A stretch of DNA of 64,000 nucleotides from Thermicanus aegyptius DSM 12793. Lineage in GTDB: Bacteria > Bacillota > Bacilli > Thermicanales > Thermicanaceae. Made by a program: the position numbers and the translations under genes. Positions within the stretch are counted from its first letter, which is position 1. The number at the start of each line of letters is the position of its first letter. Shown piece after piece: positions 7,153 through 11,174 of the stretch. The notes below the pieces were generated by a model. That model was not told the DNA's origin. It was given only the letters and a program-made list of their open reading frames with translations, and ran no database searches. The stretch lies in the NCBI RefSeq assembly GCF_000510645.1, contig NZ_KI783301.1:1728283-1792282 (forward strand), in the 5' to 3' direction.

Positions 7153-7875
7153 TTATTTTTTCCCCACAATCACCCCATGGTATAGATAAGGAGCTGACGC
7201 TAACGTTATTTCCGTATTCTTTATGGTTTTTTGGATGAGCTCAGGATCCAGGAGGGCATCCTCGTCAACCATCTGGTTAAGATCAGCCTCTTCATGCGCA
7301 GGGTTCTCCAGCTCTTCTACCACCGTTTGAAGATCCCATATGGAAACATCGGAAAAACCTTTTTGAAGGAAAAGTTTTTTCCATAGTTCCGGAGTGGGTA
7401 GGAATCCGATTCCATAGAAGCGGGAAATTTCATCAAAGAGGGGTTCTGGAAGGTCCTCTTTCGCCATCATCTCTCGATCAAAGATCATACCGTTCGGTCT
7501 TAAAAGCTCCGCATATCGAGAGATGATCTCCTCCACGTCCAGGAAAACCGTTAAAGATTCAATAAATAGAACATCAAAGGCTTCGGAAGGGAATGGAGGA
7601 TGATACGCATCCGCAACGAGAAAATGAACCGTTACCTTCTCTTGGGCTGCTCTTTTTTTCCCTTTCTCAATCATCTCCGGCCTCACATCTACACCTGTTA
7701 CCTCATACCCTCTCCTTGCCAACTCGCATGCACTTCTTCCTGTACCGCAACCCAGTTCAAGTATTTTGGCATTTCCTTCCGGGAAAAAATTATTTAATAA
7801 ACGAAGCGTAGCTCGATACCCTCCGGGGTGCGCGCTTCCGATTCCCATTTTCATTAAGAGATCGTGATACTCCAT
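7153..7875 (-). CDS. Class I SAM-dependent methyltransferase
   Basis: 240 residues. Motif I ILELGCGTGRS (38-48) with the acidic residue of motif II (VTGVDVRPEM, about 59-68) and FDVLFIESLTVFL (motif IV, about 97-112) define a Rossmann-fold methyltransferase. The substrate is not recognisable; the C-terminal half has no extra domain. The ATG at 7875 is preceded by GAGAGGAAG on the minus strand. It faces the DUF309 gene tail to tail, and lies just beyond the terminator of the next minus-strand gene, so it is probably a separate transcription unit. Confidence 0.85.
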   Translation of the reverse strand: MEYHDLLMKMGIGSAHPGGYRATLRLLNNFFPEGNAKILELGCGTGRSACELARRGYEVTGVDVRPEMIEKGKKRAAQEKVTVHFLVADAYHPPFPSEAFDVLFIESLTVFLDVEEIISRYAELLRPNGMIFDREMMAKEDLPEPLFDEISRFYGIGFLPTPELWKKLFLQKGFSDVSIWDLQTVVEELENPAHEEADLNQMVDEDALLDPELIQKTIKNTEITLASAPYLYHGVIVGKK

Positions 7876-7997: not shown

Positions 7998-8303
7998 TTA
8001 CCACCAAAACAAGGGAATTAAAGCTAATAACACGAGAAAAGGAATCCACCACCACCATGCGGCATATCCAGGCCACCAAACTTCTTCAATCTCAGGTTCT
8101 TCCCCCCTTTTGCTTTCTAAGGATTCTACGATTGCTTCTTCATGGCTTGAAGCATAGGAAGTGGCAACAGCACGCACCGGCTCAAGAAAAATCCCGTCAG
8201 GAAGAACTCGTCTCACATATCCGTAAACTCTTCTTCCATCTCTAAAGTGTGCGATGACAGGTCGGCCGAGGTGAGCGATCGCGATTGCGTAGGTAACGGC
8301 CAC
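7998..8303 (-). CDS. Small protein with beta-barrel-like N-terminus and aromatic membrane tail (copy 1)
   Basis: 101 residues, family not recognised. The N-terminal half (LGRPVIAHFRDGRRVYGYVRR) has the turn-rich pattern of a small Sm/SH3-like beta-barrel. A short acidic linker follows, then one C-terminal hydrophobic helix with a Trp-rich start (AAWWWW) and an LFWW end. The GTG at 8303 follows AAGGAGG by 7 nt, a strong ribosome site. It is clearly paralogous to the protein at 9197-9493: same MAV-x-YA start, G-x-x-V...DG-x-R-x-YG core and FWW terminus. The nearby cwlJ and gerQ suggest, but do not prove, a role in the spore or forespore envelope. Confidence 0.8.
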   Translation of the reverse strand: MAVTYAIAIAHLGRPVIAHFRDGRRVYGYVRRVLPDGIFLEPVRAVATSYASSHEEAIVESLESKRGEEPEIEEVWWPGYAAWWWWIPFLVLLALIPLFWW

Positions 8304-8390
8304 GTCAAATCCTCCTTTCCTAACCTTTCTCTAACAACATATGTTGTGAAAGAAGGATAAGCCATCCACGTCTGCGGAATTTTTCATCTC

Positions 8391-9050
8391 CTATGAGAAG
8401 GGTTCAATAGAAACTTTTTGAAGCTCTAAATTTTTTTCAATGAGACGATCAATCTTATGCAGATCCTGAGTGGATTCGACCAAATCATAATCATCAATGT
8501 TTATTTTCAAGACAGGTGCGGCGGTAAAATGAGAGATCCATTCTTCGTAACGAGAATAAAGTTCCTTCCAGTAAGAGAGTGGTGTGGTGATTTCACTTTT
8601 CCTCCCCCTTCTCTCAATCCTTTCCATAATTTTTTCAAAAGGGCCGTATAAATAGATGACTAAAGTGGGAGGTGAGAAATAAGGATTCTCAATGATCGAT
8701 TCATAAAGGGCAGAGTAGGTTTCATAATCCCTCTGGCTCATGTTTCCTCGTTCGTATTGAATCCTGGCAAAGATCTCCGCATCCTCGAAAATGGTACGAT
8801 CCTGAATAATCCCCCTTCCCGCATGATGGATACGATTTTGTTCTTTAAATCGTTCTATGAGGAAGTAGATTTGCATATGAAAACTCCACTTCTTAAAATC
8901 ACGGTAATAATCATCAAGATATGGATTTCCTTCCACTTTTTCAAGGATCATTTTTAGTCCTAAAGAGTCGGCTAAGTGAGCGGCGAAGGTTGTTTTTCCC
9001 ACACCAACCATACCGGCCACTGAGAGTAGGATAGGGGAAGAAATAAGCAT
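8391..9050 (-). CDS. Deoxynucleoside kinase (dGK/dAK family)
   Basis: Phosphorylates deoxyribonucleosides in the salvage pathway. The P-loop GMVGVGKTT lies at about 13-21, the substrate-site motif EKVEGNPYLDDYY follows near 32-45, QDRTIFED carries the DR(S/T) motif and the lid is ERIERRGRKSE. The length (219 aa) is typical of Bacillus Dgk/Dck. A TTG at 9056 is possible, but AAAAGAGG lies only 2 nt from it and 8 nt from the ATG at 9050, which I chose. It is flanked by two paralogous small-protein genes on the same strand. Which base it prefers cannot be told. Confidence 0.9.
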   Translation of the reverse strand: MLISSPILLSVAGMVGVGKTTFAAHLADSLGLKMILEKVEGNPYLDDYYRDFKKWSFHMQIYFLIERFKEQNRIHHAGRGIIQDRTIFEDAEIFARIQYERGNMSQRDYETYSALYESIIENPYFSPPTLVIYLYGPFEKIMERIERRGRKSEITTPLSYWKELYSRYEEWISHFTAAPVLKINIDDYDLVESTQDLHKIDRLIEKNLELQKVSIEPFS

Positions 9051-9155
9051 AAACAAAACCTCTTTTCAATCAGACTTTCCGTACAAAGGTACAGTTTCTA
9101 TCGGGATGGGGCATTAGCATTGTACCACAGGTGGAGCGGAAAAGGTATGGAAAAA

Positions 9156-9175
9156 GAAAAAGCCCCGTCAGGGGC
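9156..9175 (-). terminator. Intrinsic terminator of the 9.2-9.5 kb gene
   Basis: GCCCC (9162-9166), loop GTCA, GGGGC (9171-9175). On the minus strand the stem is followed by TTTTTCTTTTT. Confidence 0.8.
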
Positions 9176-9196
9176 CCATTGGCTTAAAGAGGGAGA

Positions 9197-9493
9197 TTAC
9201 CACCAAAAAAGAGAGAGCGCTAAGATGGTGTAGAGAGGAAGGGCTAATCCGGCATAACCAAGTGGGTAATACGTAGGAACAATCCATGGTTTGCCGGCCT
9301 GTTCCAACGTGGTAACCTCAAACTCTTTATCCATCGTGTGGGAAGCAAGCCTTACAGAAGGCCGAATCGGTGCTATACGAAGGTGGGTTGGAGTCACGTG
9401 ATGAACGATGCCGTAATGTCTCATGCCATCATGGCAATCGCAAACGACGGCTTTCCCTACAAATTGCCTAGCATAAGCATAAGAGACAGCCAA
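9197..9493 (-). CDS. Small protein with beta-barrel-like N-terminus and membrane tail (copy 2)
   Basis: 98 residues, paralogue of the protein at 7998-8303. The shared core is MAVSYA, then VGKAVVCDCHDGMRHYGIV, a PIRP segment and AS near residue 50. The C-terminal hydrophobic helix ends LSLFWW, as in copy 1, which ends IPLFWW. This copy has two cysteines (CDC) in the barrel-like part and lacks the Trp cluster. The TTG at 9493 follows AAAGGAGGG by 6 nt. It is divergent from cwlJ (9688), with about 195 bp between, so the two may share a control region. The function is unknown. Confidence 0.8.
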   Translation of the reverse strand: MAVSYAYARQFVGKAVVCDCHDGMRHYGIVHHVTPTHLRIAPIRPSVRLASHTMDKEFEVTTLEQAGKPWIVPTYYPLGYAGLALPLYTILALSLFWW

Positions 9494-9687
9494 TGTTTTC
9501 CCTCCTTTACGTTAGATCCATTCCCTTTATCTTACGTTTATTTTCAGGAATGGCCCTCCACATTAGCCGTTTTTTAATTCGTGAGGATCAAGAAAAAATA
9601 GGCGTGGCAATGGAGAGTGGGCAAGTTCCCAAACCGGGAGTAGGCAATAGATTAGAATTGAAAGAGGAAAGAAACAGGGGTGAAGGG

Positions 9688-10116
9688 ATGGCGGTTATTA
9701 AGGCAAACCGTGAAGAGATTAAGCTTTTAGCACGCCTGATTCGAGCAGAAGCGGAAGAGGACGGGAAGTTGGGGATGTTGATGGTTGGTAATGTGGGAGT
9801 GAATCGGGTAAAGGGGGACTGTCTCGACTTTAAGGGAATACGGACCATAAAACAAATGGTTTTTCAACGCCCAGGAGGTTTTGAAGCAACACAGAAAGGA
9901 TACTTCTATCAAAGGGCGAGGGATAGTGAAATCCGACTTGCCATCAAGGTAATTAATGGGGAGAGATATTATCCGGCAACCTTTGCACTTTGGTTCTTCA
10001 AACCTTATACAGGAGGATGTCCACCCCAATGGTTTAACCAATGGAATAGCGGAAGATATAAATCCCATTGTTTCTATCAACCCACCGTATCCAGCTGTCC
10101 AGGCGTATATCGTTAG
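9688..10116 (+). CDS. cwlJ: Spore cortex-lytic enzyme CwlJ
   Basis: 142 residues, the same length as B. subtilis CwlJ, covering a single Hydrolase_2 (SleB/CwlJ) domain. The conserved helix LLARLIRAEAEEDGKLG (about 11-27) holds the probable catalytic glutamate, and FALWFFKPYTGG and CPPQWFNQWNSG near the C-terminus are family blocks. There is no signal peptide, in keeping with a mother-cell protein placed in the coat that cuts cortex during germination. The frame is open upstream to 9493, but only ATG 9688 has a ribosome site (AGGGGTGAAGGG). gerQ follows after 15 bp; GerQ is needed for CwlJ localisation, and the two form an operon in several Bacilli. Confidence 0.95.
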   Translation: MAVIKANREEIKLLARLIRAEAEEDGKLGMLMVGNVGVNRVKGDCLDFKGIRTIKQMVFQRPGGFEATQKGYFYQRARDSEIRLAIKVINGERYYPATFALWFFKPYTGGCPPQWFNQWNSGRYKSHCFYQPTVSSCPGVYR

Positions 10117-10131
10117 AAGGAGTGATGTTTG

Positions 10132-10560
10132 ATGAGTTATCCCTATATGGAATGGGAATACCCCTTATCTTCTCATTATCCTATCTTCTCTCCTCATGCG
10201 GCGCCCACCCCCACAACACCATTACAACCCAGTGGCGCCACGATCCCAGGCATTCCCCTCACTCCCCAAGAGATGCTGGAAGAAGAGATTTCCTATGTAG
10301 AAAACATCTTGCGGTTTAACCGGGGAAAGATGGCTACCTTCTTCATGACCTATGAAAATAACCCGGAGTGGACTGCGAAAGTATTTAGGGGAGAGATCGA
10401 GACGGCGGGTCGAGATCATATCATTATTAGTGATCCCAATACCGGCAAGAGATTTCTTCTTCTCACCGTAAATTTGGATTATGTGGAGTTTGACGAAAGA
10501 ATCGCTTATGTACCGCCGAGGATTCCACCCTATGTACAGATGCAACTGGAAGAAAGATAA
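10132..10560 (+). CDS. gerQ: Spore coat protein GerQ
   Basis: 142 residues. The C-terminal domain (about 50-142), with GKMATFFMTY, FRGEIETAGRDHIIISDP and the YVEFDERIAY block, is the GerQ core. The N-terminus is a Pro/Ser/Thr/Tyr-rich tail. GerQ holds CwlJ in the coat and is normally cross-linked by transglutaminase Tgl through lysines near its N-terminus. Here the first lysine is residue 66, so that cross-linking route seems absent (see findings). A TTG at 10129 directly precedes the ATG at 10132; AAGGAGTG upstream fits the ATG better. It is in an operon with cwlJ and ends at a strong terminator. Confidence 0.9.
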   Translation: MSYPYMEWEYPLSSHYPIFSPHAAPTPTTPLQPSGATIPGIPLTPQEMLEEEISYVENILRFNRGKMATFFMTYENNPEWTAKVFRGEIETAGRDHIIISDPNTGKRFLLLTVNLDYVEFDERIAYVPPRIPPYVQMQLEER

Positions 10561-10622: not shown

Positions 10623-11174
10623 ATGTTCCACTCTTTGTTGATCAAATCATTGGTTCTCTGCTTCTTCATCGTTACTCCTGTAGGGGAGGAAAAATTCCAT
10701 GAGCTAACGGATATTGAAGCACCTGTACAACAAGCCCATTCGTTTCATGAATTGGTGCATGCGGCCGACATCATAGCTTACGGATCGTTCGGAGAGGTGA
10801 CAAGAAGGGAAGATACCACCCAATTGGTAGAGGGGAGAAGAATCATCCACTATATACAACCTTTTTATGGGCAGACTTATATAAAAGGCGGAGCTTTTGA
10901 ATTCGTTGATGTTCTTACGACAGGAGTAGAACCTTCTCCTCCCTTGGCAGATCCCTTAAATAAACGTTTTCCGGGGGCGGTGGCAGAAGGCGAGTATGTC
11001 GTATTTCTTAAGAAAATTCCCGGCCGGCCTCTTTATTATTTGATAGGCGGTTGGCAAGGGTTATATCCGGTTTATGAAGATGAAATCATTGTTTTAGAGG
11101 AGGGGGGGTTTCAGGAACTGGGCGGTTTAACGGTGGAACAACTGAAGAAAAAGGTGGAACTTCTTGAAAAGTAG
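10623..11174 (+). CDS. Probable secreted protein of unknown function
   Basis: 183 residues, family not recognised. An N-terminal hydrophobic stretch (about 5-20, LLIKSLVLCFFIVTPV) could be a signal peptide or anchor. The rest is soluble and mixed alpha/beta, with segments SFHELVHAADIIAYGSFGEV and GAVAEGEYVVFLKKIPG that resemble a beta-rich domain ending in a helix (LTVEQLKKKVELLEK). The ATG at 10623 has AAGGAGGGA about 7 nt upstream, so the gene is credible. It sits between the gerQ terminator and a tiny membrane-peptide gene. A sporulation role is possible from position only. Confidence 0.65.
   Translation: MFHSLLIKSLVLCFFIVTPVGEEKFHELTDIEAPVQQAHSFHELVHAADIIAYGSFGEVTRREDTTQLVEGRRIIHYIQPFYGQTYIKGGAFEFVDVLTTGVEPSPPLADPLNKRFPGAVAEGEYVVFLKKIPGRPLYYLIGGWQGLYPVYEDEIIVLEEGGFQELGGLTVEQLKKKVELLEK

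Follow-up and report, generated by a model that had tools for sequence, protein, structure and literature searches.

The known proteins closest to the family reported here are the Sm, LSm, and Hfq proteins (Pfam SM-ATX, PF14438, and LSM, PF01423; archaeal SmAP and Hfq). Both groups have an N-terminal helix followed by 3 strands, and the Sm1 pattern G..V.V...DG....G....V.....L is common to them. The family differs from the Sm, LSm, and Hfq proteins in that (i) the Sm2 half is not predicted; (ii) the residues of the RNA site are replaced; (iii) the C-terminus forms a hydrophobic helix; and (iv) its members are found in spore formers only. The SM-ATX and LSM14 matches for which scores were shown lay under the Pfam cut-offs. 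A second comparison is offered by GerQ, a small β coat protein whose nine-subunit rings are formed via edge-to-edge strand pairing (PMC11405398). GerQ, which is encoded next to the family genes in the host, is likewise a small spore protein composed of helix and β strands, but it has 2 helices, 5 strands, and no hydrophobic tail. Homology between the two was rejected for want of profile support: the hhalign probability of the GerQ profile against the family was 2.9, and neither member at the locus described below (P1 and P2) matched PF09671 or TIGR02728. The GerQ rings show that strand-paired assembly is possible for a coat protein. Weak matches to DUF2642 (PF10842) occurred in a minority of members (8 of 68, best 6e-4), and no paper on this domain was found in the open-licence literature.

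The window analysed here is a stretch of 64,000 nucleotides from Thermicanus aegyptius DSM 12793 (NZ_KI783301.1, positions 1,728,283 to 1,792,282), in which 2 family members, P1 and P2, lie close to gerQ (Table 1). P1 and P2 are real reading frames with 36% identity in an end-to-end alignment (E 1e-13) and one predicted shape, in agreement with the homology proposed in an earlier sequence-only reading. That reading had also placed them on either side of a deoxynucleoside kinase (dNK) gene, with one of the two divergent from cwlJ, and the domain matches and coordinates agree with this arrangement, P2 being the divergent one. A AAAGGAGG-type ribosome site precedes both genes and bears out the strong ribosome sites that had been described. 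The claim that each gene has its own terminator stands for P1 and is weaker for P2, the stem of which carries a T tail but has an energy no stronger than that of shuffled sequences (z -0.33).

Table 1. Coordinates of P1, P2, and neighboring features in the window
Feature	Position	Strand	Remarks
Class I SAM methyltransferase	7153..7875	minus	Kept in the gerQ-cwlJ/dNK block; context
Terminator hairpin 3' of P1	7944..7979	minus	-23.8 kcal/mol, z -5.6
P1, 101-aa family member	7998..8303	minus	GTG start
P1 secondary structure (predicted)			Helix 3-9; strands 15-19, 25-34, and 37-42; disordered linker; C-terminal hydrophobic helix 79-94; FWW end
P1 ribosome binding site (GGAAAGGAGGA)	8310..8320	minus	
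P1 sigma-E/K-type -10 box CATATGTTG	8335..8343	minus	40 nt 5' of start
dNK, between P1 and P2	8391..9056	minus	PF01712, 4e-55
Terminator-like hairpin 3' of P2	9160..9177	minus	7-bp GC stem and T tail
P2, 98-aa family member	9197..9493	minus	TTG start; P1-like topology
P2 C-terminal helix (predicted)			Residues 78-97; ends FWW
P2 ribosome binding site (AAAGGAGGG)	9500..9508	minus	
P2 sigma-E/K-type -10 box CGTAAGATA	9528..9536	minus	43 nt 5' of start
CwlJ-type cortex hydrolase	9676..10116	plus	PF07486; divergent from P2; context
GerQ	10132..10560	plus	PF09671, 3e-40; context
183-aa protein (orf183)	10623-11174	plus	Directly 3' of gerQ

AlphaFold2 models of P1 and P2, built from alignments of 36 and 68 sequences, agree with each other and include a short helix, 3 strands, a disordered linker (residues ~43 to 77), and a C-terminal helix. 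The pLDDT is about 90 in the Sm1 region of both models and about 50–60 in the linker, and neither model has a strand past residue 42, that is, strands 4 and 5 of the Sm2 half that would close the barrel are not predicted. P1 and P2 had no significant match in Pfam or NCBIfam; the sole Pfam listing for P2 was an Sm domain at chance level (E 0.3). At the level of the family, the SM-ATX model (the ataxin-2 Sm model) matched 32 of 68 members (best 3e-6), and an hmmsearch of the PDB with the family profile returned mostly Sm/LSm chains, aligned mainly along the Sm1 segment (best E 0.0011). The high-probability Foldseek matches were Hfq/Sm structures with E-values above 0.3, the ordered part being short. 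Alignment, models, and profile searches thus agree on an Sm1 motif consisting of the helix and strands 1–3 with conserved glycines. The small Sm/SH3-type barrel that had been proposed therefore holds as an Sm-type β domain with a three-strand Sm1 sheet, at best half of the full barrel.

The residues of the canonical Sm1 RNA site are D..MN in loop 3. In the family, columns 34–38 are mostly T, P/D, D, G, and I/V in their place. Given the absence of strands 4 and 5 from the predictions and the exchange of the usual RNA-site residues, the ordered N-terminal part is, according to the models, Sm1-like rather than an Sm protein or a complete barrel. The same 2 features bear on the idea that P1 and P2 are membrane-tethered, Sm/Hfq-like proteins that capture mRNA or sRNA at the forespore surface. 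Although the Sm, LSm, and Hfq proteins that the family resembles bind RNA, the exchange of the loop-3 D..MN mostly for T-P/D-D-G and the lack of a predicted Sm2 half with its RNA-binding loop make this very unlikely.

The C-terminal membrane helix ending in FWW, which had been read from the sequence, is predicted in both proteins, and its character extends across the family. Of 107 members, 105 contain a 17-residue stretch whose hydropathy averages 1.2 or more; at least 2 of the last 4 residues are aromatic in 97. About a quarter of the members have Gly/Tyr-rich tails. A single C-terminal hydrophobic helix with no N-terminal signal corresponds, by prediction, to the tail-anchored pattern; instead of a membrane anchor, the tail could be a segment buried in coat packing.

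The family is a large one. Of 400 sampled Bacilli genomes, the family-alignment search detected at least one member in 172, and a single genome may have as many as 8 copies. The sporulation protein SpoIVA is encoded in 171 of these 172, and 131 of 132 SpoIVA-negative genomes have no member (Fisher P 5e-41). The lone SpoIVA-negative carrier has Spo0A and SpoIIID, as do the only 2 family-positive genomes outside Bacilli in the phylum sample, which belong to one genus. The link of the family to spore formation is well supported, and the spore association suggested for P1 and P2, including the co-occurrence with spore genes that a profile search was to check, extends over the class. No member was detected in 97 of 268 SpoIVA-positive genomes; sporulation in general does not therefore require the family. 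Some weak matches at the edge are stand-alone Sm-like domains with no tail, and the outer limit of the family is therefore soft. Neither Pfam nor NCBIfam has an entry for the family. For DUF2642 and Sm-like proteins of the spore coat, the titles and abstracts listed from the open-licence literature contained no description of the family, in line with the earlier remark that no function had been described. A phage origin was rejected (no PHROG match), as was a class-wide conserved operon partner, since clustering of neighbors gave lineage-specific neighbors only. One member, annotated as hypothetical, is carried by an Alicyclobacillus fastidiosus plasmid (NZ_CP104069.1, 12001-23536; our locus L211), some kilobases from DUF4183 and glycosyltransferase genes and with a VapBC pair near. 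This setting may fit the spore surface, although it proves nothing.

Promoters were scanned 15–80 nt 5' of the start in 100 family genes left after removal of near-duplicates and in 695 intergenic controls. The strict pattern CATANNNTA, which was set beforehand and is the -10 form of sigma-E and sigma-K, was found in 32 of 100 family genes, 35 of 695 controls (P 6e-14), and 5 of 100 opposite strands. A relaxed form, C[AG]TANNNT[AG], which was picked after the sequences had been viewed, was present in 64 of 100 genes, 72 of 695 controls, and 9 of 100 opposite strands. Most family -10 boxes lie 31–54 nt from the start. The boxes of P1 (CATATGTTG) and P2 (CGTAAGATA) are near but inexact matches to CATANNNTA and fit the relaxed form only. 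The -35 region has no clear match to the sigma-K consensus, and sigma-E and sigma-K are therefore indistinguishable here. An element AATCAGC...GCGGAACGC is conserved ~20–40 nt 5' of the -10 box in several loci (L009, L012, L142, L174, and others); it may represent a -35 region or a site for a regulator. A -10 box of mother-cell type, for which a sigma-E/K scan had been proposed, is thus strongly enriched across the family. These boxes also bear on whether P1 and P2 are small tail-anchored proteins of the inner membrane or forespore with a role in germination or dormancy rather than in the coat. The restriction to spore formers and the hydrophobic tail are compatible with such a location, but -10 boxes of mother-cell type and the Gly/Tyr-rich tails of paralogues, which would be more like those of coat proteins than of inner-membrane proteins, make it unlikely.

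In 6 genomes of the same order, orf183-gerQ-cwlJ and a downstream group whose last gene encodes the methyltransferase are divergently oriented. Among the relatives, a narrow profile scan named Hydrogenibacillus schlegelii and Candidatus Carbobacillus altaicus. The dNK genes are 2 in tandem in 4 of 5 relatives and a single gene in the host, where P1 sits between the remaining dNK and the methyltransferase; Hydrogenibacillus has no dNK at the locus. The gerQ-cwlJ/dNK/methyltransferase block dates back to the ancestor of the order. The dNK gene is part of this order-wide block, and a tie to P1 and P2 is not supported. The 183-aa protein encoded 3' of gerQ is conserved in the 5 relatives and has no Pfam or NCBIfam match. 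In the host and 2 relatives (G001 and G003), the interval from cwlJ to the dNK genes contains a family gene, which is missing there in the other 3 (G002, G004, which is Hydrogenibacillus, and G005). When the listed positions of gerQ and family members were compared by eye in gerQ-positive genomes outside the order, no family gene was close to gerQ; G001 and G003 were the only other genomes in which one was. With a family gene in 3 of 6 block loci and none found close to gerQ in the genomes compared outside the order, the link to germination is local and not maintained, whereas that to spore formation is general. Proximity to cwlJ-gerQ is mostly incidental, and a specific tie to cwlJ/gerQ, as had been suggested, or to dNK is not supported. 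It is accordingly quite unlikely that P2, and perhaps P1, is a dedicated CwlJ/GerQ partner by which the germination hydrolase is positioned or retained at the spore membrane. In favor of such a role, host P2 and cwlJ are divergent, and 2 genomes of a related genus also have a family gene near cwlJ; against it, cwlJ-gerQ is intact with no family gene at the locus in 3 other same-order genomes, no member was found close to gerQ in the genomes compared outside the order, and 2 family-rich lineages have no gerQ.

P1 and P2 are, judging from the tree, not sister copies. P2 clusters with a third host paralogue (G000:C1:2960275) and same-order homologues, which rules out a recent tandem duplication giving P1 and P2, and P1 forms a separate long branch. 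The third paralogue lies elsewhere in the host chromosome, beside L,D-transpeptidase and M50 peptidase genes. Its neighbors (locus L003, 217-1839 and 2725-2931) are genes for an M50 peptidase, a YkuD L,D-transpeptidase, and a DUF1657 protein, and the M50 neighbor is seen again beside family genes of related genomes. Genomes carry 1–8 scattered family copies, and the 2 proteins are thus not a pair. Of the spore membrane or coat tethering pair envisaged for this locus, the spore link remains, with mother-cell type -10 boxes enriched across the family; the pairing and the tie to cwlJ/gerQ do not, and the coat role stays conditional.

We judge the chance slightly better than even that P1 and P2 are undescribed, tail-anchored sporulation proteins made by the mother cell for the outer forespore membrane or the coat, with self-association via the Sm1 sheet. 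Each gene would be transcribed in the mother cell from a sigma-E/K-type promoter of its own, and the N-terminal 45 residues of the product would fold as the Sm1 half of the Sm fold. The hydrophobic helix, which lies almost at the very C-terminus, would serve as a tail anchor whose most plausible site of insertion is the outer forespore membrane, so that the Sm1 sheet would face the mother-cell side. We infer that neighboring copies may then join at their edges to form a coat layer or tether one, while paralogues with Gly/Tyr-rich tails could serve other coat depths. Alternatively, within the same reading, the proteins would lie packed within the inner coat and assemble through the Sm1 sheet. 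A bolder version, which we regard as doubtful, is that endospore formers adopted a half-Sm module as a structural unit, the membrane-tethered Sm1 sheets of which pair along their edges and give rise to rings or a lattice at the outer forespore membrane, with up to 8 paralogues per genome building successive envelope layers.

Although the Sm fold itself is not new, we found no published description of a half version that has a hydrophobic tail, exists in many copies, and is confined to spore formers. Little is known of how the coat is assembled in species other than Bacillus subtilis, and a multi-copy family seen only in spore formers offers immediate targets for work on Alicyclobacillus and other spore formers. 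Should the Sm1 module prove to self-assemble, an RNA-protein fold would have been turned into envelope scaffolding. Most likely, the family helps build the outer shell of the spore.
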